DNA of 64,000 bases from Schistocephalus solidus (Eukaryota > Platyhelminthes > Cestoda > Diphyllobothriidea > Diphyllobothriidae). Below the pieces are notes generated by a model, which saw only the letters and a list, made by a program, of their open reading frames with translations, did no database searches and had not been told where the DNA came from. Where the stretch lies: NCBI GenBank assembly GCA_017591395.1, contig WEDG01002087.1, positions 124,001-188,000 on the forward strand. Reading direction: 5' to 3'. This document shows, in pieces, positions 3,786 to 63,770 of the stretch. Within the stretch, counting starts at the first letter, position 1, and each line of letters begins with the position of its first letter. The position numbers and the translations under genes were made by a program.

Positions 3786-3950
3786 CCAATAAAAACATAT
3801 CAGACATAAACATAAGTGCATGCGTACGGACCAGCCAGGAGACAACTAATAATAAGGGTAGATTGATGCAATACAGTTCCACGCTTTTTCTGCCTTCCTT
3901 CAGTTAAATATAAATCGGATCATCAGCTAGAACCAGAAAAAATAACAGGT

Positions 3951-4260
3951 AGTGGGGCGCTCACAGATCGGTTACAGGACTCACTCGTCCCTTTGTGCCT
4001 TGGGGCTAACTCTCAAGCCCCGCCAGCAGCCGTTAGGCAGCTAAGTATATAGACAGGATAACATGACCGACAAAGACAAGGGAGACTAGAATGGCTATTT
4101 CTGGCTTATTAGCCGTCATCAGCCAGTCATACCCAACCCCAGGCGCCGCGGCGTCCAAGCCTCGAACTCGCGACCTTGTTTGGGCAGACGTCCAACGCTC
4201 TACCCACTGCGCCACGAGCTCGTTGTCTTGCCGGTTTCGATCGGGAATATTAACAATGGT
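3951..4260 (-). mobile_element. Family A SINE, tandem unit 1 (310 bp)
   Basis: Begins AGTGGGGCGCTCACAGATCG and repeats at 4261 after 310 bp. Minus-strand order: tRNA-like head with GTGGCGCAGTGGGTAGAGCG, body with the hammerhead block (4084-4128), then the tail with a GGGACGAGTGAGTCC hairpin. Confidence 0.85.
4084..4128 (-). ncRNA. Hammerhead motif, family A
   Basis: As the 4394 copy, 310 bp away in the tandem. Stem I is GACUGG/CUAGUC (one G-U); core boxes intact. Confidence 0.65.
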
Positions 4261-4569
4261 AGTGGGGTGCTCACCAATCGGTTACAGGACTCACTCGTCC
4301 CGTTGTGCCTTGGGGCTAACTCTCAAGCCCCGCCAGCAGCCATAAGGCAGCTAAGTATATAGGCAGAATAACATGACCGACAAAGACAAGGGAGACTGGA
4401 ATGGCCATTTCTGGCTTATTAGCCGTCATCAGCCAGTCATACCCAACCCCAGGTGCTGCGGTGCCCGAGCCTCGAACTCGCGACCTTGTTGGGCAGAATT
4501 CCAACGCTCTACCCACTGCGCCACAAGCTCGTTGTCTTGCCGGTTTCAATCGGGAATATTAACAATCGT
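4261..4569 (-). mobile_element. Family A SINE, tandem unit 2 (309 bp)
   Basis: Over 90 percent identical by eye to unit 1. Hammerhead block at 4394-4438 is intact in all core positions. Confidence 0.85.
4394..4438 (-). ncRNA. Type I hammerhead ribozyme motif, family A (reference copy)
   Basis: On the minus strand the 45 nt read: stem I GACUGG, box CUGAUGA, then C, stem II GGCU/AGCC with loop AAUA, then A, box GAA-A, palindromic stem III region AUGGCCAU, H17 = U, stem I CCAGUC. All universally required hammerhead core bases are present (C3 U4 G5 A6 N7 G8 A9, G12 A13 A14, A15.1-U16.1, H17 not G), and stem I pairs perfectly over 6 bp. Predicted cleavage is after AUU, before CCAGUC. Odd points: stem II is closed by a C-A pair instead of the usual G-C, and stem III can form only two pairs within one molecule, a form known in animal retroelement hammerheads that work better as dimers. 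Confidence 0.7.
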
Positions 4570-4735
4570 AGTGGGGCGCTCACCGGCTAATAAGCCAGAA
4601 ATGGCCATTCCAGTCTCCCTTGTCTTTTCGAGCTATTGACACCAAGCCGTCGTCAGATGATGGCTGCCGGCGGGGCTCGAGAGTGAGCCCCAAGGTAGTA
4701 CGGGACGAGTGAGTCCCGTAACCGATCGGTGAGCT
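4570..4735 (+). mobile_element. Family A SINE, truncated third unit that switches orientation
   Basis: Fifteen bases of a third minus-strand unit (AGTGGGGCGCTCAC) jump directly to CGGCTAATAAGCC, the plus-strand body entered in the middle of hammerhead stem II, and continue through the body and tail to GATCGGTGAGC. The junction creates a fold-back with unit 2. Confidence 0.75.
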
Positions 4736-16735: not shown

Positions 16736-18149
16736 TGCCGGCCTAAGGAATGGCTTTTATGGTTAAGGATGGTGGCTGATCCGGAACTGAGCATTCCAGT
16801 TCGTGACGCATATGCTTCCGAACTTAAACCATTTTAAAACCTTTTCTCTCGTCGTGGTATGCTGATGAATTTTTGGCTCCGTCCCTATCACCTGAGATCG
16901 TGAATGGAGCTCATTTGGCCGGAACACGGAGCAACCAATCTGCCAATTCCCTTTTCAGTGACACCCGGAGAGAAGGCAACTAGCGCACCAGAATGACTGA
17001 CACGCTGGTTGCCAAAATAGAGGGCCAAAAGAGGGCAGTTGTACGGCAGGGACACCTCAGAGGCAGTCAAGACGGGAAGGATGAATTGCCAGCGTCCACA
17101 CATTTTCACGGACACTGTTTATCCATGTAAAGATAATTGTGACACATTCTTTTTCAACATTACTTTTCAGGCGTAAATTTCGGGAAATCTTTTGTTGCGA
17201 CGTACGCGGATTTTGTTGAGGTATAAACATATTGGTATCAGTATATTGGAAACAGCCTGGACCTGTTAAAAGAGAATTGGATCATATTTGGTTAGGCTTG
17301 ATTGGGCCTATGAGTAGTGTAGATAACGCCCTTTGTTCATTTAAAATACCACCTTGAAAGTCACCTTAAGGTCCACCACTTGCCCAGTACCCGGAAGTAT
17401 TTTACGATTGAACTTCCGTTAGCTTATTTTCGACCCATGGTAGCGACTTAAGAACATGTTCAGTCGGCCAGGTTTACAACTACGGTTTGCGGGGCCCCAA
17501 TGTGCTTGCACCCGCATCCGCCTGCAAAATATATCCGTTCACACGCGCATCGGATCCACACCATTACATTATCCCATCTGATTGGCAGGTAGACAGTCAC
17601 AGGCGTTTTTGTAATTATCCTTTATTTCGAATATTTTTCAAGATTAACCAAATTTATGAATGAACTTACAGAAAGTTATGGGCTCTACCAAACAAATTCT
17701 AGTAAATAAATTAAACAAGTACAGCACTACGTTCCATGTTCCCCATTTTTAAACCACACTGTTTATTTTCTCTGATTCGAATGCCTCTGAATGGGACATT
17801 CTATCGTCCAAGAAGGCGAACATTGTGTTTTTCTCGTGTTCGATCTGTCAGATAACTTTCGTGTGTACCTCGTTCATAATATTGGTTTATAGGTTTTTTG
17901 AGTTTTCACGAAAATATCTGTAAAGACCGGTCCCTGTTTCATACAGCGTACAACGGCCAATTAGTAAAAATGTTCTGCAGCTTCAGACGGCTTAAGCTCT
18001 TATCTGTCCCCTGTGTGGAGCAAGCACATTTTACACGTAAATAGGTTTACGAATCATTGCTGTGAGTGGTTTTCGTAAGTTCACTAGGCTGGGTAGCCCT
18101 CGGTAGTCTATTCTAGATGTTAACATTCCCTCTCTCATTTTTTGTTTAG

Positions 18150-19466
18150 AATTTTGCATCTCAACCTGGATTATTCAACCGAACCCGAAGTGCACATTTT
18201 GGAGGATCCACAGCACCAGTATTCTGCTCACCTAAACGGTTTAGAGCATCAGTCAGAGCAGGTAGGTGCTGACGAACACGAATTCGCACTGACCGCGGAG
18301 GCCACCAAGAACTCCTCGGATATTCACGCCTCTCTCGAAGGCTCGAAACAGCATATTCTAGCAGACGAGAGACAGATCGAGAGTCAAGCTTTGGTAGAAG
18401 AGGCAATTGCAGACGCAGAGCAATCCCGTCTGAGGGAAGAGCCGCAGCAGGAGCATCAAGAAGGATCAGAGAACATTTTTTCACCCATCTCACCCTTCGG
18501 TCCCGGCATACCAGCGGTCGAGGAAGGTCTCCTGGAAAACGGAGCAGAGACTGAGCACGACTTGCCAGATCCACACTTGTCGGACAGCTTCCAAACAGAG
18601 GAGTTCCTGCAGGAGCCTCCCTCCGAGACCTTTAGTGGTTTTGAAGGCAAATCGCAGCCCGCCCCCGAGGCTCACACAACTGAGAAGGAGAAGGAAGAAC
18701 CTGTCTGTGAGCACCATTCACAGTCACCTTCGCGAGGAAACTCACAAGTCTCTGAGCCAGAAGACATTCAGCTGATACCTCCAGAAGGTGGTATTTCTCA
18801 AGATCTTTATCAGCAAAAGGAGGAGGAGTTCGTAGCCTCGTCGGACTTACCTACAAAGAACAGCATACACGAAAACGAAGAGGACGAGAAAAAAGAGGAG
18901 CCGACCGAGCCAGAACACGAGACATTTGAACAGCAGCAGCATTTTGGCGCCGAAATTGAAGAGATTCCACCAGCGCCGCTGGTCTCTGCTCCGATAATTC
19001 TTGCAGCCGATTGCGAAGCGACACCCGAGGCTCCACCACTCGAAGAGGTTGAACACACTTTCGGGGAGGAGGGGGAAACCAGCACAAACAAGCCAAGCGA
19101 AATGGCTTCTGTCGAGTTTGTCAACGAAGGCCATCGTTACGTTCCCGAACACTGTGGTCCTGAGGCCTACGACCACGCCCACCATGAGCGGGCTCCAGGG
19201 GATGAAGTGGAACACTATGAACTGGGCCCAGCGATCGAGCATCCTCAGGTGGCTGAGCCCTGCAACGCCACTACGCAGGCCATAGCAATCAACGAGGCCC
19301 TGCCCATGCCGGTACCGGTCTATCAAGCGCAGTTCGAACCCCACTCTTTTGGAATACTAACGCTCCTGGATGCACCGCGGGAACATGAGGGCTATCAAGT
19401 TGAGGAGAAGGAGGAGGGAGGACACAAGACCTTCCAGGATATTCGCCAAGACCTGGAAAAACGAAA
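18150..19466 (+). CDS. Long internal exon of an unrecognised acidic, disordered protein
   Basis: A 439-codon open stretch lies between a strong acceptor (CTCTCTCATTTTTTGTTTAG, ending 18149) and a strong donor (CGAAA|GTGAGT, exon end 19466). Its length is a multiple of three, so the exon is symmetric (it starts with the last base and ends with the first two bases of a codon) and could be skipped without shifting frame. The product is very rich in Glu, Pro, His, Gln and Ser (for example EEEFVASSDLP, EEDEKKEEPTEPEHE, QQQHFG). It has no predicted membrane segment or globular domain I recognise, and ends in a basic-acidic helix (TFQDIRQDLEKRK). Composition and GC are clearly coding-like compared with the flanks. 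No initiator methionine is needed because it is internal; upstream and downstream exons were not found. If the donor is not used, the frame stops immediately at 19468-19470. Function unknown; a cytoskeletal or scaffold-type linker is a guess only. Confidence 0.6.
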
Positions 19467-20416
19467 GTGAGTTCGGATTGTATTCCTCCTCGAAAAGCAC
19501 TTTAACCCTCTTGATCGCTTTTGACGCTCCCTGTTTCCTGAGAGTAACTCTCTGTCTGATACAATATTACACATTTCAGTATCTGCAAAGGCTCCAGTTG
19601 AGACCACCAGGTTATTTCTACCAGTGTTTTGTTGAAAATAATTATTCAAGAAATCAAGGAGATCAACACAAATGGAAGGTTCGACACGCTCCTGTGACTA
19701 CTATTATTCAAAGCGAAATAAAAGAACTGTTGTAGCCGATTGAAACGGTAAACCTTTAGTGGCTTATTCATAATCGTTTTTAGCTAGCTGCGCTGACAAC
19801 TTCACACATAAACCTCTCATATGGTACACAGATTAGACACGATTCAATGCAAAATTTGTCCACCTTGAAAAGGGTGCTCACTGATCTGTTTGGTGTTCCG
19901 CAGCAGCAAACTCGCTCTGGTGTTCTCTAGGAATAAGCCTACTCCCCGCTTCTGCTGAGCCAACTATGTTATTCTTAGCTTGGTCGCTTCCGGTCTGCCA
20001 GGTTCTCTCCTCTCTGTAATCCCTGCAATCAGATAACGAGTCTGTCTGCTCCCAGAACACAACACAAGCCTGCGTGCATTTACTCCTCCATTAACATCGT
20101 TATCTATTTAAAGTAATGCCAACGAGGTACGCTGGCCAATTATGTAATTTTGCCTATTACATGCAGTGTATGAGGGCTCACACCACGTTCAACACTGCAA
20201 TCAATCTGCTTTTCGTTTGGCTTGCCGTATACCTATCGCTGGTATAAGAGAAGGAAGTATTTTCTGGCCCTAATTCGCTGCTCCGTGGCATCCGTATAAA
20301 AAATATACACGCTCTCAAACCCCCATACTGCTGCGAAGAAGTAAGAATTATGTATACGTTAAAAATATTTAAATAAATCTGTTATACAATGTGGACTTTC
20401 TGATGACATCCTGAAA

Positions 20417-25479: not shown

Positions 25480-25975
25480 GATGGCAAAACAAAAATTCCT
25501 TTGACCCACTTGTGAAACTCGGTGGCCTCGCCGGGATTCTAACCCACGCCAGCAAGGGGAAGGCTTTAGTGCAGCCAACGCTCTAGCCAACTGAGCTACG
25601 AGGCCCCGCCGGGAGCCATGAGTTTAATCACACTTGGGTCAAAGGAATTATTCAAATCTGCCAAAATCCTCTACTAATTAATTGTGCCTGGTAGTCATCT
25701 GGTGAATTCTAGATTGATTGCTTAGGAAATCCTGCATGGGCAGTCAGCTTGCTGTATCAGAATTGGTGGATTCCATGCGATGCAGTAAACTGGGCGTGTA
25801 ACTTGATCCAAGTGTGATTAAACTCACGGTTCCCGGTGGGGCCTCGTAACTCAGTTGGCTAGAGCGTTGGCTGCACTAAAGCCTTCCCCTTGCTGGCGTG
25901 GGTTTGAATCCCACCGAGTTTTTCACAAGTGGGTCAAAGGAATTATTCAAATCTGCCAAAATCCTCTACTAAAAC
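25480..25975. repeat. Family H: two inverted tRNA-like units with direct and inverted tails
   Basis: The minus-strand unit (25523-25606) and plus-strand unit (25838-25919) each read GGCCUCGUARCUCAGUUGGCUAGAGCG, then GGCUGCACUAAAGCC, a long variable segment CUUCCCCUUGCUGGC, and a T arm (GUGGGUUUGAAUCCCAC in the plus copy). The minus unit keeps a perfect 7-bp acceptor stem (GGCCUCG/CGAGGCC). The tail GTGGGTCAAAGGAATTATTC follows the plus unit; a near copy (CTTGGGTCAAAGGAATTATTC) also follows the 5' side of the minus unit. Class II tRNA-like shape, but repeated and with conserved flanks, so I call it a tRNA-derived repeat. Confidence 0.6.
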
Positions 25976-36039: not shown

Positions 36040-36306
36040 AAACCCTTGTTCGAATCCCAGTTTATAAGAACCTGGGACTACGTGTGGCTGGCTGATAACG
36101 GCTACTAGACCATTTTTGACTATCCAAATCCCCTTGGTCTCTGTTTTTAGTCATTCCGTTATCATTGTTGATCTCGATGTCACTGCCTGTGAGGGCTGTG
36201 GCGTGAGACCTCCGGCGCACAGGGACGGACATGTCCAGTAAACTGGTTGGTGAACGCAAATCTCACAATACCTAAGTAGATCGGTGAGCCGCACACTATC
36301 ATATAT
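36040..36306 (+). mobile_element. Family A SINE, degenerate, ending in an AT microsatellite
   Basis: B-box-like TTGTTCGAATCCCAG, body TGGCTGGCTGATAACGGC, tail end GATCGGTGAGCCGCACACTATC, then (TA)n. The tail is of the 49-kb subtype. Confidence 0.5.
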
Positions 36307-36316
36307 ATATATATAT

Positions 36317-36415
36317 GTATATTTGTTGTGCGTATGACGTACTGATGATTGGTAAAATCCAGAAAACAGCTGTCTGCATCTTGTCTGCTTTACCCTTAGC
36401 AACCTATATATACGA
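36317..36415 (+). repeat. Family B repeat
   Basis: TTTGTTGTGCGTATGACG, the hammerhead block, then CTTGTCTGC and CTTAGCAAC before TATATATAC. It matches the reverse complement of 63446-63530 throughout. Confidence 0.7.
36336..36380 (+). ncRNA. Hammerhead motif, family B, second copy
   Basis: GACGUA-CUGAUGA ... CCA-GAAA-ACAGCUGU-C-UGCAUC. Here the stem II closing pair is U-A (standard Watson-Crick). Stem II itself is weaker, loop II is shorter by one base, and one A is added after the GAAA box. Stem I has 5 of 6 pairs. Sits beside (TA)n at 36301-36316. Confidence 0.6.
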
Positions 36416-42812: not shown

Positions 42813-43149
42813 CTGCGCTAGCATCTACTTCCACTCACTGGGCTCCTACAACTCGCCTTTTCGCTTGCAGATGGGCAGCCAGCCATGCTTTTGGCAGGCA
42901 CGATTCAGTTCACCCATTGTTCTTAATGCCTCTTATAATCGTCTTCCAGGAAGTGGAAGGAGCAAGATTGATTGTTATAGCCTTAATTTAGTTCCATAAT
43001 TAAGCACATGGTTACCCACTGATGCACTCACTGGGTCCTGAGGCTCGCAATAATGTATCGCTGTGTGGTCTCCATGGCCTATGTGCCAAGTGCGCTTCAA
43101 AGCAGATTGTGGTTTAGCTTGCTTGCGTTTAACTGACAGGTCTGCAGGT

Positions 43150-44012
43150 GTGTGCGTGTGTGTGTGTGCGACTCCGGACCAATACCGCCAATGCCCAGGC
43201 CCTGCCAACATGCCCGTGCTGTCAACGCATTTCCGCGCGCGAATCGGCCTGGTTGGACATCTTCGGACGCAATGCACCAACAATCCGACAATTCCAACTT
43301 CTACGTCAAATTCTGCCAACCCTCATTCTGACTCTCCCACCCTCACTCCTGGCATCAATTCCATTACTCCCACCATCATAGAGACCACATCCATCTACTC
43401 ATCGCTTGCTACCCCCACCTACGCCTTCGCCTTCACTACCACCACCACCATCAGCGATGGGGAATCTCTCCTAAGCTGTACTCAATGTGACCGCACATTC
43501 ACCTCACGCATCGGCCTGGTCGGTCACTTGCGAATACATCGTACAGAGACCGGTGAGCCAGTGCCTGGAACACCATCACACAGAGGAGATCGTCGCCTCC
43601 ACTTCCCTCACTGTCCTCGCGCATTGACTCATCGCATGGGCCTATTCGGTCACATGCGCATCCATGACAGCGGAATACACCACAATGCCGCCAACACCGA
43701 TACACCATGCACACCCTCCGCTCCTGCCATTCTTAGCGCCCCTGACACCCCCACTACCATGAATGACACCCCCCGGCCTCTACCGATTTCTCCTGCCCAC
43801 ACTGCGCCCGCAACTTCAACTCACGCATCGGCCTGGTCGGTCACCTGCGAATCCATCGCACGGAGGCTGGTGAACCAGTACCTGGGGCTCCGACATACAG
43901 TCGACGCGCCCACCTTCACTGCCCTCATTGCTCCCGCACATTTACACACCGCATGGGCCTATTAGGACACATGCGCCTCCACGACAACCTCCGGTTAACC
44001 ACCGGAGGCTAA
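43150..44012 (+). pseudogene. Non-LTR retrotransposon ORF, C-terminal C2H2 zinc-finger region, frameshifted
   Basis: Translation shows C2H2 fingers of one repeated type: CTQCDRTFTSRIGLVGHLRIH (C-x2-C-x12-H-x3-H), a decayed one around FPHCPRALTHRMGLFGHMRIH, then after a frame change CPHCARNFNSRIGLVGHLRIH and CPHCSRTFTHRMGLLGHMRLH, ending LRLTTGG-stop at 44010-44012. The fingers are linked by Thr/Pro/Ser-rich spacers and a TEAGEPVPGAPTY-type linker. Frame is lost twice: in the first finger near 43210, and at a C-run near 43770. The 5' end is cut at a GT-rich patch near 43150; no reverse transcriptase or endonuclease remains. From memory of tapeworm proteins, this finger block is the C-terminal tail of abundant reverse-transcriptase ORFs, so I read it as a 5'-truncated LINE rather than a host transcription factor. 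A second copy of the last fingers at 56405 supports repetitiveness. Confidence 0.75.

Positions 44013-49149: not shown

Positions 49150-49189
<40 letters not shown>
49150..49189. repeat. (TA)n microsatellite at the edge of a family A array
   Basis: About 40 bp of TA, directly followed by the family A tail terminus ATAGTGTGGGG. Confidence 0.95.
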
Positions 49190-49190
<1 letters not shown>

Positions 49191-49192
<2 letters not shown>

Positions 49193-49489
49193 AGTGTGGG
49201 GCTCACCGATCTGCTTAAGGAACATGTATGTTCCGTTGTGCCCTGGAGCTCAGCCTAGAGCCCTCGCAGGCGGTCGCATAGCGACGTGTAGCATATGATG
49301 GAATGGAACCGACAAAGACAAGGGAGACCGGAATGGCCATTTCTGGCTTATTAGCCGTCATCAGCCAGTCATACCCAATCCCAAGTGTGGCACACCTGGA
49401 TTCGAACCCGCGACCTTTGGTATTTGAGTCGAACGCTCTACCATTGAGCCACGGGCTCGTTTTTGTCGGTTGTGATCGGGAATATGATG
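49191..49489 (-). mobile_element. Family A SINE, tandem unit (299 bp), 49-kb subtype
   Basis: From ATAGTGTGGGGCTCACCG to the next identical start at 49490. The minus-strand head has GAGCCCGTGGCTCAATGG and a perfect B box, GGTTCGAATCC. Hammerhead block at 49326-49370. Confidence 0.85.
49326..49370 (-). ncRNA. Hammerhead motif, family A
   Basis: Core boxes CUGAUGA and GAAA intact. Stem I GACUGG/CCGGUC keeps pairing through a G-U, and stem III AUGGCCAU is intact. Confidence 0.65.
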
Positions 49490-49757
49490 ATAGTGTGGGG
49501 CTCACCGATCTGCTTAAGGAACATGTATGTTCCGTTGTGCCCTGGAGCTCAGACTAGAGCCCTCGCAGGCGGTCGCATAGCGACGTGTAGCATATGATGG
49601 AATGGAACCAACAAAGATAAGGAAGACCGGAATTACCATTTCTGGCTTATTAGCCGTCATCAGCCAGTCATACCCAATCCCAAGTGTGGCACACCTGGGA
49701 TTCGAACCCGCGACCTTTGGTATTTGAGTCAAACGCTCTACTATTGAGTCACGGGCT
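49490..49757 (-). mobile_element. Family A SINE, second tandem unit, cut at its head
   Basis: Nearly identical to the preceding unit; ends at TGAGTCACGGGC, where an inverted copy begins. Hammerhead block at 49625-49669 with one change in stem III. Confidence 0.85.
49625..49669 (-). ncRNA. Hammerhead motif, family A
   Basis: Core boxes intact; stem I GACUGG/CCGGUC. The stem III region is changed (AUGGUAAU), leaving A15.1-U16.1. Confidence 0.55.
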
Positions 49758-49905
49758 TATATGTGCTACACGTCGCTATGCGACCGCCTGCGAGGGCTCT
49801 AGTCTGAGCTCCAGGGCACAACGGAACATACATGTTCCTTAAGCAGATCGGTGAGCCCCACACTATCAGCATATTCTGATCACAACCGACAAAACAACGA
49901 GCCCG

Positions 49906-49959
49906 TGGCTCAATGGTAGAGCGTTTGACTCAAATACCAAAGGTCGCGGGTTCGAATCC
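49906..49959 (+). promoter_or_regulatory. Type 2 pol III internal promoter (A and B boxes) of family A
   Basis: TGGCTCAATGG at 49906-49916 fits the A-box consensus, and GGTTCGAATCC at 49949-49959 fits the B-box consensus exactly, at normal tRNA spacing. The same boxes occur on the minus strand in the tandem units at 49.2-49.75 kb, so several copies could be transcription starts. Confidence 0.75.
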
Positions 49960-49986
49960 CAGGTGTGCCACACTGGGATTGGGTAT

Positions 49987-50033
49987 GACTGGCTGATGAC
50001 GGCTAATAAAGCCAGAAATGGCCATTCCATGTC
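49987..50033 (+). ncRNA. Hammerhead motif, family A, with two small insertions
   Basis: GACUGG-CUGAUGA and GAAAUGGCCAUU are intact. One extra A is in loop II and one extra U in the distal stem I strand (CCAUGUC). Confidence 0.5.
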
Positions 50034-50146
50034 TCCATTATATCTATATAGATATCCATTACATATATATATATATTAGGGGAATTATATCATGAGGCAT
50101 TAATCGAAATGCTTACAGGTGGTTTGGGTACGAAAGAATTACTTTG

Positions 50147-60324: not shown

Positions 60325-60720
60325 GGAAGGAAAGGGAGACTAAAATGGTAATTTCGGGCTAATTAGCCGTCACCAGCCGTGTGTCGCAACACCTGAGGCT
60401 GGAACCCGCGGCCACGGATGTTAATAGTGGTACTGCGGGACTCACCACTCTCCTAACGAGACGTACTTGCGTCACGTTATGCCTTGGGGGTTCTCTCTCG
60501 GGCCTCGCCAGCAGCCGCAAAACTGCTTGTATTATAGGCAGTAGAACATTACCAACAAAGACAAGGAAGTCTGGGGTGCCTACTTCGGGCTTCTTAGCCA
60601 TTATCCTCAGCCATTCATACCCAATCCCAGGTGTTTCATCACCTGGGTCTCGAACACGTGACCTGTTGGTTAGAGGTCCATCGGCCTAACCATTGAGCCA
60701 CGAGCTCTTTGTCCTATCGA
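60325..60720 (-). mobile_element. Family A SINE, two tandem diverged units
   Basis: Unit one is cut (60325-60430). Unit two (60431-60720) has the tail GGACTCACCACTC...GGGGGTTCTCTC, body, and head TCGGCCTAACCATTGAGCC. The hammerhead blocks near 60348 and 60568 are decayed. Confidence 0.65.
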
Positions 60721-60810
60721 TTGTGATTGAGTGCTGGAGAGTTTCGAGATTGAGCCCTAAGATACAACGTGACGAATATGTCCTGTAACACGATCAGTAA
60801 GTGCCCCGCT
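60721..60810 (+). mobile_element. Family A tail in opposite orientation
   Basis: GAGATTGAGCCCTAAGATAC and CCTGTAACACGATCAGTAAG are the plus-strand tail, placed directly after minus-strand heads, as at 4570, 13091 and 62771. Confidence 0.55.
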
Positions 60811-60966
60811 ACCACTGTGTCACATTGTTCCCTGGTCTTAGATTCACCTCAGCCCGCCGCCTGGGACTTTACTGTTACTATTTGAACTCTTTTCGCACCT
60901 GCAACAGCGGATTATTAGGGTATAAATTAGGCCTAGGCTTTAATCCGGTCTTCTGGCTGCACCTAG

Positions 60967-61324: not shown

Positions 61325-62309
61325 GTAGCCTTATTTGTTGTTTAAAATGTCCACTCGGTGGCCATTTGTATCATTGTTGCTTTCACCCTCGAAAAGTGCT
61401 CGAATTGTTGACCCCATCGATCTGCCCAACAAAGCTTTTCTCCATAAAATGGCTTGTACTTATGGAGAAAAGTGTGAGATGAGGACAGAATGTAGAACTG
61501 ACTGGGTGTGGCTGAGGAAGGACTGACGTCATGCATCATGAATGAGCACAAGCATGTTGGATGTGTTTTCCCTCACGGTCATCGCTAACAGCGTTGTTTC
61601 AATCAACTGTTAATTTAACTATTGATAGGGGACCGCGCTCTGTTTGACAGTGTGTGGAAATGTACCAGGAGGAGGTAGCTACAGACAGTACACAGAGCAA
61701 ATGGTTCTGTGTGGCATGTTTATACAGCCTCTCCTATCTGCTCGATGAAGCGAGCAGCACTGTGTCTCTGAGGGTTCTTTTATGACCCAGTGACCCTGGT
61801 TTAGATGGTAACACACAATCTAAGTTTACGCAAAATAAACAGCACATCAACACACATTGCGCGGCCAAGCAGAAGCGGTTTTTCTAGGTTCCAGTTCATG
61901 TTTTGCTCTGTGAGATGCCGAATGCAAAAATTGGCAGAAAGTGGCAGTCAGATTAAAGCAGACTGCGCGGAGTCACAGAAAAAACGTAAATCAACCGAAA
62001 TTGCCGCAGTTCCTTAAAGTATTGATTTTTAGGGTGCCAACCCAAAATTTTGATAACCTATCTCTAACACAGCCGGGATGGCTTCCGATTCAGACTGAAC
62101 TGAGGTCAAGACGAAGGCCGGTGCCTCAGTCAGATTGGGTGTGTTTTTCTGAGGTAAAGTACGCGTAGCACGCTTCGTATGTGAAAATCCGCCCCATCCT
62201 GCAAGCCTTCGATCACCAGGTTTGACAATAACGTTGTCTCCAGAGGTAGAAGTATCCGTCCTGTCTGCTAATGGGTCTTCGAAATTTCGAGAACATTATG
62301 GTTTCTATA
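61325..62309. other. Start of the next intron of the MuiA-like gene
   Basis: Follows the weak donor GAG|GTAGCC. No repeat family recognised and no following exon seen before the family A arrays. Confidence 0.4.
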
Positions 62310-62341
62310 GGCAGACAAATATTGCTGGCAAAGACAGAGGA

Positions 62342-62385
62342 GACTAGAATGGCTATTTCTGGCTTATAGTCGTCGTCAGCCAGTC
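62342..62385 (-). ncRNA. Hammerhead motif, family A, one base deleted
   Basis: CUGACGA and GAAA intact with stem I GACUGG/CUAGUC. One base is missing in the stem II hairpin (CGACUAUAAGCC). Confidence 0.45.
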
Positions 62386-62652
62386 ATACACCCCAGGTGG
62401 TGCACCACCTGAGGATCGAACCCACGACCCGTTGATCAGAAGTCCAACGCTCTAACCATTGGGCCACGGGCTCGTTGTCTTGCCGGTTTAGATCGGGAAT
62501 ATTGACTTGCATTCTTTGGTGGACGCTCAGCGATCGCTATCAGAACTCACTCGTCCCGCTCTGCCTCGAGGCTCACTCTCGAGCTCCGCCAGCAACCGTA
62601 CAGCGTCTAGTAGTAGAATAGGTAGATGAATATTGTTGGCAAAGACTAGGGA

Positions 62653-62697
62653 GACTAGAATGGCCATTTCTAGCTTGTTATCCGTCGTCAGCCAGTC
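62653..62697 (-). ncRNA. Hammerhead motif, family A
   Basis: CUGACGA and GAAA present, stem III AUGGCCAU intact, stem I GACUGG/CUAGUC. Stem II is weakened (GGAU/AGCU). Confidence 0.5.
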
Positions 62698-62770
62698 ATA
62701 TCCGACCCCAGGTGGTGCACCACCCGAGGATTGAACCCGCAACCCGTTGATCAGAAGTCAAACACTCAAA

Positions 62771-62930
62771 CCATTCCAGTCACCCTTGTCTTTACAGGCA
62801 ATATTCATTGACCTATTCTACTACTATCCGCTATCTGGTTGCTGTAGTGGCTCAGGAGTGAGCCTCGAAACAAAGCGGGACCAGTGAGTTCCGCTAGCGA
62901 TCGGTGAGCGTTCATCAACATATGCAATTA
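62771..62930 (+). mobile_element. Family A body end and tail in opposite orientation
   Basis: TTCCAGTCACCCTTGTC...CCTATTCTACTACTATCC...GCGATCGGTGAGCGTTCATC on the plus strand follows the minus-strand units directly. Confidence 0.65.
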
Positions 62931-63446: not shown

Positions 63447-63770
63447 CACAAATATGTTGCTAAGAGTGCAACAGGCAAGACGCAGACAGCTGTTTCACGG
63501 TCATTACCGATCATCAGTACATCATATGCCTTGTGCAGTGAGGTACATAAACAAGCCAAAACAAGTGCGTAACACTCATTCCATCCATGTGTCCTATGAC
63601 ACAACGTTCGTTTATCGCCGGTAGGTAACTGGCGGGCGGACAAATGGGATCGAGTGAGATCCTTACCACATTGAGTGAGTGCTTTCGCACTTGTTTTGGC
63701 TTTGTTTATATATATATATGATATATATATATATCATATATATATATATATATATATATATCAAGCGAAA
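63361..63770 (-). repeat. Family B repeat with flanking AT microsatellites and a long hairpin
   Basis: (TA)n at 63399-63445, then GCACAAATATGTTGC, the hammerhead block and AGTACATCATATGCC. Further right, CAAGCCAAAACAAGTGCG (63553) and CGCACTTGTTTTGGCTTG (63688) are inverted, with about 118 bp between them, followed by (AT)n 63708-63764. Confidence 0.65.
63479..63523 (-). ncRNA. Type I hammerhead ribozyme motif, family B (reference copy)
   Basis: On the minus strand: stem I GAUGUA, box CUGAUGA, U, stem II CGGU/ACCG with loop AAUG, U, box GAA-A, palindromic stem III ACAGCUGU, H17 = C, stem I UGCGUC. Stem I pairs over 6 bp (two G-U). The length (45 nt) and every spacing equal those of family A, while the stem sequences differ. 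The closing pair of stem II is U-U. It lies directly beside (TA)n at 63399-63445. Confidence 0.7.

Follow-up and report, generated by a model that had tools for sequence, protein, structure and literature searches.

The 64,000-nt stretch of Schistocephalus solidus DNA analyzed here (hereafter the window) harbors a repeat family, family A, which we interpret as a non-autonomous SINE/retrozyme composed of a tRNA-like head, a hammerhead and a non-coding body, and probably mobilized by Penelope-type machinery. We assign this reading a probability of roughly two in three. The element is approximately 305 nt long and often lies in head-to-tail arrays. Its motif, head, tandem units, two types of 3′ end, AT targets and twin insertions can be read directly from the DNA. 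The tapeworm origin that had been proposed for the window was borne out by the open reading frame at 18124-19470, which is 98% identical to a protein of S. solidus and 64% identical to one of Spirometra.

A first-pass annotation of the sequence had placed a hammerhead ribozyme at 4084-4438. It was indeed found there, though on the minus strand, and because cores are located at 4432-4408 and 4122-4098, the interval covers two ribozyme motifs of a tandem dimer. A BLAST comparison of the unit with the window placed this head-to-tail dimer at 3950-4569 (minus strand); it consists of two 310-nt units of subfamily A1, which are 93% identical. The order within each unit, from 5′ to 3′, is tRNA-like head, hammerhead and body. 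Core match and pairing descriptor delimited the type I motifs to 4390-4444 (copy 1) and 4080-4134 (copy 2), both on the minus strand. From the hammerhead scheme, cleavage of copy 1 is predicted between 4400 (U17) and 4399, the corresponding prediction for copy 2 being between 4090 and 4089. The tRNA-like heads occupy 4473-4530 in unit 1, with A- and B-box-like sequences, and 4163-4221 in unit 2 (minus strand). In all, 23 pieces of the window matched the 310-nt unit (BLAST, E≤1e-3), and family A matches made up 4.6% of 124 kb that were unselected for the motif (window included). The window also contains a tRNA-Ser-like gene at 25521-25605 on the minus strand (ARAGORN; Rfam 36.5 bits), the sole tRNA in it above the cut-off, and a C2H2-like open frame at 43054-43965 (plus strand), which we take to be a frequent repeat of diphyllobothriid tapeworms.

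On the minus strand, copy 1 reads GGG-UAU-GACUGG-CUGAUGA-C-GGCU-AAUA-AGCC-A-GAA-AUGGCCAU-U-CCAGUC-U-CCC, and the order of elements in the family A motif is that of a type I hammerhead. The core CUGANGA...GAAA, stems I, II and III, the A15.1-U16.1 pair and H17 are all present. Stem I is interrupted by an internal loop (UAU/U), which presumably sits at the expected site of the hammerhead loop-loop contact. Stem I had been described as pairing perfectly. Pairing of the stems could be confirmed, but the foot of stem II carries an unpaired C.A mismatch, and stem III (AUGGCCAU) is a palindrome, whose pairing is weak within a monomer and becomes strong when two copies meet. The G-U changes of stem I, which had been taken as a sign of constraint, mostly represent one subfamily difference and carry little weight.

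The relaxed descriptor search that had been proposed along with the motif was carried out with thresholds of at least five pairs in stem I, four in stem II and two in stem III. It disclosed five sites in the window, four of family A and one of a second family (B), and no site in any of 60 dinucleotide shuffles. The 35-nt block with at most three mismatches was present four times (0.00 expected), and CTGANGA-N14-GAAA with one mismatch allowed was found 19 times (5.4 expected). The ten or more loci originally claimed are attained only when decayed copies are counted. Within the 604-Mb genome of S. solidus a strict 33-nt pattern gave 21,962 matches, its reversed control none. A looser descriptor (stem II at least three pairs, stem I at least four) recovered 61 motifs from loci L031-L050, which had been picked for containing the motif. 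By these counts, the hammerhead-like motif in the SINE was confirmed to be real and not a product of chance. The type I core and the pairing attributed to it were upheld by the descriptor hits and by compensatory changes in the single B copy.

This copy of family B (63474-63530, minus strand), identified by the pairing descriptor and by alignment with family A, keeps CUGAUGA, GAAA and the UAU/U internal loop. Its loop 2 is similar (AAUG, as opposed to AAUA in family A), and the triplet at the cleavage site is GUC. Stem I is formed by GGCA/UGCC and GAUGUA/UGCGUC, stem II by CGGU/ACCG and stem III by ACAGCUGU; all three stems differ from those of family A, yet pairing is retained. In an alignment of the 12 copies without internal gaps, changes on both sides affected 9 of 16 pairs (one cell each). 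None of 500 column shuffles reached nine pairs, and slid structures gave zero to two. Stem covariation between independent copies thus does exist, but since all nine covarying pairs are contributed by the one B copy, they amount to one contrast and not to nine.

A comparison with the Rfam model Hammerhead_1 (RF00163), also proposed in the first-pass annotation, yielded no match up to E=10 in the sequences scanned. A whole-genome scan with this model gave no informative signal, and control genomes likewise yielded nothing. The missing match makes it less likely that the motif belongs to the Rfam family and leaves the structural assignment untouched. The minimum-energy fold of a lone A1 motif was not a hammerhead (-17.0 versus -11.5 kcal/mol for the hammerhead), and the same applied to the B motif (-15.1 versus -9.9). 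Upon co-folding of two A1 motifs, a double hammerhead was obtained as the minimum-energy structure (-45.5 versus -34.0 for two separate monomers), as was the case with two A2 motifs (-44.1 versus -32.6); in both double hammerheads the helix III duplex was one pair longer at each end. Co-folding of two family B motifs gave no double hammerhead at minimum energy, nor did the minimum-energy fold of a 620-nt tandem dimer transcript include a single or double hammerhead. Folding of the monomer or of the full transcript was dropped as support for the hammerhead, the minimum-energy folds being different. The modeled A1 and A2 co-folds are consistent with dimer-dependent cleavage, which they fit but do not prove; cleavage of this kind has been reported for amphibians (PMC7229834).

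The unmatched Rfam model and the deviating monomer fold would speak for an accidental likeness, in which a conserved SINE block merely happens to hold CUGAUGA and GAAA. We consider such an accident very improbable, as it would have to account for the 60 shuffled windows devoid of descriptor hits, for a family B that retains pairing, core, 3/1 internal loop and GUC site with changed stems I-III, and for a minimal hammerhead-like motif at a similar place in the Penelope-like remnants described below.

A tRNA- or pol III-type head had likewise been claimed. A tRNA-like head was confirmed: that of subfamily A2 (L037, 790-858) reached 31.5 bits with the Rfam tRNA model, above the cut-off of 29, and the heads of the A1 copies in the window matched below this gathering score (15.1 bits in unit 1 and 16.4 bits in unit 2). 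A1 and A2 have the hammerhead block in common, around which heads and bodies have diverged. The A2 unit moreover contains self-inverted stretches at unit positions 264-290 (27 nt) and 131-146. Altogether, 18 tandem arrays were detected, with a period of 301-310 nt and 2.4 to 21.8 copies. Their consensus includes the hammerhead in 16 cases, and several short arrays start just 5′ of one hammerhead and stop just 3′ of another. These tandem hammerhead units support the parallel to Sm-alpha and retrozymes that had been drawn from the sequence. Arrays of up to about 22 units might suggest that unequal crossing-over has spread an ordinary satellite, with the hammerhead as a passenger or relic. This is very unlikely in our opinion, because the head-to-head pairs and the scattered copies of one to three units, whose 3′ ends are fixed and lie at AT runs, resemble insertions. 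The long arrays may grow by crossing-over.

For a survey of the ends of family A copies, 213 hammerhead matches in 76 partly overlapping loci and in the window were evaluated. Ends were counted only if homology stopped at most 300 consensus positions away and inside the locus, and identical junctions were counted once, which left 50 distinct ends on the 3′ side and 44 on the 5′ side. As many as 21 of the 3′ ends reside 36-46 nt past the motif (alpha) and another 13 are located 142-154 nt past it (beta). Together these two intervals, which were defined after inspection of the data, contain 34 of the 50 ends (about 3.9 expected), the other 16 lying elsewhere. At 28 of the 50 ends, an AT run of at least four repeats was present between 4 nt before and 24 nt after the end, compared to 123 of 17,689 background windows; with the search restricted to the 25 nt that directly follow the end, 23-24 of the 50 had such a run. 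The units of A1 and A2b contain ATAT/TATA solely at alpha and beta, while A2(L031) lacks it at beta. An A2 beta end at 36273-36306 has a decayed family B copy downstream of it (36330-36407, plus strand; 79% to the copy at 63493).

The 5′ ends are scattered, as truncation would give. An AT run adjoins 7 of the 44, and an inverted piece of family A adjoins 21 of them (matches of at least 30 nt; 22 in an earlier count) versus 2 of the 50 3′ ends. Since L015, L034, L046 and L047 each supply both halves, the 21 inverted neighbors correspond to 17 junctions. Post hoc, we noticed that nine of the 44 5′ ends precede the hammerhead core by 35-43 nt (1.3 expected). This position is the T-loop of the tRNA-like head; in A2 the self-inverted stretch 264-290 has its edge there as well. 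It is possibly a stop or a strand-switch site of the reverse transcriptase.

Neighboring family A pieces of at least 50 nt were arranged head-to-head, with 3′ ends outward, in 25 cases and tail-to-tail in three. The minimum length was introduced in a recount because of the self-inverted stretches of the A2 unit; earlier, looser counts that admitted very short pieces had given 24 versus 3 pairs, and 30 twins of which 26 were complete. The recount comprised L012-L076 and the window, L001-L011 being left out. L001-L050 and L055-L074 had been chosen for an intact hammerhead, so that only 124 kb were unselected. The unselected DNA contained five head-to-head pairs, all of them within the window, and no tail-to-tail pair; the selected loci contributed 20 and three, respectively. 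If an intact hammerhead was demanded in both halves, four head-to-head pairs and one tail-to-tail pair were left. Two of the 25 head-to-head twins were cut by a locus edge and were left out of the end pairing. The 23 complete twins comprised 13 alpha+beta, one alpha+alpha, one beta+beta, four alpha+other, three beta+other and one other+other. Thus, both ends could be typed in 15 twins, and 13 of these combined one alpha with one beta end, i.e., carried the tail on one inverted end only, as against the one alpha+alpha and the one beta+beta twin. The number of alpha+beta twins stayed at 13 under the looser as well as the stricter rule.

The dimer described above belongs to the single beta+beta twin, which is made up of 3950-4584 (minus strand) and an inverted partial copy at 4584-4734 (plus strand; BLAST of the unit and twin recount). 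In another twin, an A2 tandem copy at 49184-49757 (minus strand) with two intact hammerheads (cores 49340-49364 and 49639-49663) and a beta-type end inside an (AT)n run lies head-to-head with an A2 copy at 49761-50039 (plus strand), which has an alpha-type end. Three old A1 head-to-head pairs were found at 1096-1715 (left end beta, right end alpha), at 60470-60811 (left end of neither type, right end beta) and at 62306-62909 (left alpha, right beta), the last one with a possible 8-bp target duplication (ATTATGGT). Target duplications were present in two of 26 twins (8 and 9 bp), a result that was not significant as 43 of 300 shuffles were equally good; the test used the 26 twins of the looser count, four of which were dropped in the stricter one. 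The 9-bp case may be that of GGCTCTAAT, a possible target duplication on the two sides of a head-to-head A1 insertion at L060 (254-804). The first-pass annotation mentioned neither head-to-head insertions nor a possible link to Penelope, and the insertion anatomy is the new part of this analysis.

SINEs are usually mobilized by LINEs. A hammerhead retrozyme/SINE could accordingly have been moved by a LINE (e.g., RTE- or L1-like) that performs twin priming at AT-rich sites, AUAU merely annealing to the (AT)n primer. The ATAT at both start sites equals the target, as microhomology priming would need. However, L1 twin priming leaves one 3′ end only, whereas start-type ends were found on both outer sides in 15 of the 23 complete twins. 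In addition, poly(A) tails were absent from the 50 listed ends, save for an A-rich flank in L035, and Penelope-like remnants share some loci with family A. For these reasons we regard mobilization by a LINE as unlikely.

Pieces resembling GIY-YIG endonucleases were encountered at the loci L017, L029, L063, L067, L002 and L054. L036 contains an RT-like piece, which gave no match in a protein search. All scores with the Pfam GIY-YIG model were below its cut-off of 22.6 bits (L017 21.2, P0005 20.3 and L029 15.9), and the pieces in L063, L067, L002 and L054, which had no Pfam match at E≤0.01, were recognized by eye. There were 60 relatives, several of which are called GIY-YIG; with the exception of one entry that reads just "hypothetical protein", the named ones belong to Schistocephalus, Spirometra, Sparganum and Dibothriocephalus. 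In P0060 an RT segment is joined to the same C-terminus as in the GIY-YIG-like pieces. The weak GIY-YIG hits, the source names of the relatives and the join in P0060 provide modest support for the label Penelope.

The Penelope-like 3′ region was seen at five distinct loci. It ends at or near an AT run in L017, L003 and L063, and without an AT run in L029/L050 and L001/L002/L045. At L017 a minimal hammerhead-like motif precedes the (AT)n run by approximately 40 nt, and the same locus has a second, inverted copy of the region, positioned head-to-head. Such minimal hammerhead-like motifs, which lack a real stem III, reside at L031 4279 (plus strand), L055 180 (minus), L017 1897 (minus) and L050 4426 (plus); L017 and L050 have theirs in Penelope-like 3′ regions, whereas the motifs of L031 and L055 belong to another sequence family. 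A family A unit of 301-310 nt has no room for RT or GIY-YIG coding and therefore could only be a passenger of Penelope.

Endonuclease-bearing Penelope elements of a rotifer have direct and inverted pLTRs, most commonly head-to-head, with a tail that is optional on one inverted copy and a preference for simple AT-rich targets; target duplications of 8-10 bp occur in several cases and are absent in others (PMC3846280). Family A resembles them in its head-to-head inverted copies, one-sided tail and AT-rich targets. The purified Penelope protein of Anolis cuts AT-rich DNA and extends both strands from two adjacent internal start sites (PMC11167929). A hammerhead, two internal start sites and extension of both strands are further features in common. 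Unlike Penelope, family A encodes no protein, measures only about 305 nt and has a tRNA head. Its alpha-beta distance of approximately 110 nt exceeds the 31-bp or 30-40-bp tail, and its start sites have ATAT in common with the target, in contrast to the start site of the Anolis element, which is not homologous to the cut DNA (PMC11167929). Penelope elements have been suggested as movers of retrozymes on the basis of shared hammerheads, tandem copies and host genomes (PMC7229834), and a review by the same senior author mentions that animal retrozymes contain no motif pointing to their autonomous mover (PMC7761336). From the analogous insertion anatomy and the Penelope-like remnants at some of the same loci, we infer that family A is probably mobilized by Penelope-type machinery.

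Under this proposal, transcription by pol III would start from the internal tRNA-like head. In transcripts of at least two units, the palindromic stem III would enable double hammerheads, as in the two-motif model of family A, and the RNA would be cut once per unit. A host RNA ligase might then join the monomers into circles, by analogy with published retrozymes. A Penelope-type endonuclease/RT would nick (AT)n DNA and prime cDNA synthesis on both target strands at AUAU in the body, either at alpha (approximately 40 nt after the ribozyme) or at beta (approximately 150 nt). Reverse transcription running around the circular RNA would produce the tandem units.

The same idea may be extended to animal hammerhead retrozymes in general. 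They would be passengers of endonuclease-bearing Penelope elements, and copying of their circular or multimeric RNA would proceed from the two nicked strands of an AT-repeat target. Priming at alpha on one strand and at beta on the other would create a head-to-head twin with a long and a short end, the tRNA head would serve as the element's own promoter, and the shared hammerhead would mark the RNAs used by the enzyme. We advance this extension tentatively, as a reading that could well hold but is slightly more apt to fail. Which enzyme moves animal retrozymes was an open question in papers of 2020 (PMC7229834, PMC7761336). With more than 21,000 intact-motif copies and readable ends, the question of the mover can be addressed first with sequence data and subsequently in a two-component in vitro assay.

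The combined terms hammerhead ribozyme, SINE and tapeworm gave one match in open-licence literature, whose subject is Schistosoma haematobium. No hammerhead element of a tapeworm was found among the matches listed there (most subscription papers lie outside this scope), in agreement with the earlier supposition that the tapeworm version may be undescribed, and no joint mention of Schistocephalus and hammerhead was found in this literature. The features of the S. solidus element support its placement among the hammerhead SINEs/retrozymes as a representative from a tapeworm, and the family would extend hammerhead SINEs to tapeworms. The Sm-alpha and Sj-alpha elements of schistosomes are SINE-like and contain a hammerhead; those of S. 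mansoni derive from tRNA-Gln and count about 38,500 candidate copies (PMC2770079). Both systems thus are flatworm SINE-like elements with a hammerhead, a tRNA-derived part (in S. mansoni) and tens of thousands of candidates. In this comparison by description they differ in their hosts, trematodes there and a tapeworm here, and the accessible text of PMC2770079 does not mention a head-to-head anatomy with two start sites for Sm-alpha/Sj-alpha. The W-elements of S. mansoni are also flatworm repeats; they carry type I hammerheads with a very short stem III, for which functional evidence has been reported (PMC8490949). Unlike the S. solidus element they are satellites of the W chromosome, and the word tRNA is absent from the main text of that paper. 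In metazoans, platyhelminths included, non-LTR retrozymes are tandemly repeated and contain hammerheads of type I (Cervera & de la Pena 2020; PMC7229834). The S. solidus element shares with them the type I motif, a short helix III (palindromic in some) and dimeric to multimeric units in the range of approximately 170-400 nt, and is distinguished from them by its recognizable tRNA head and its defined 3′ ends.
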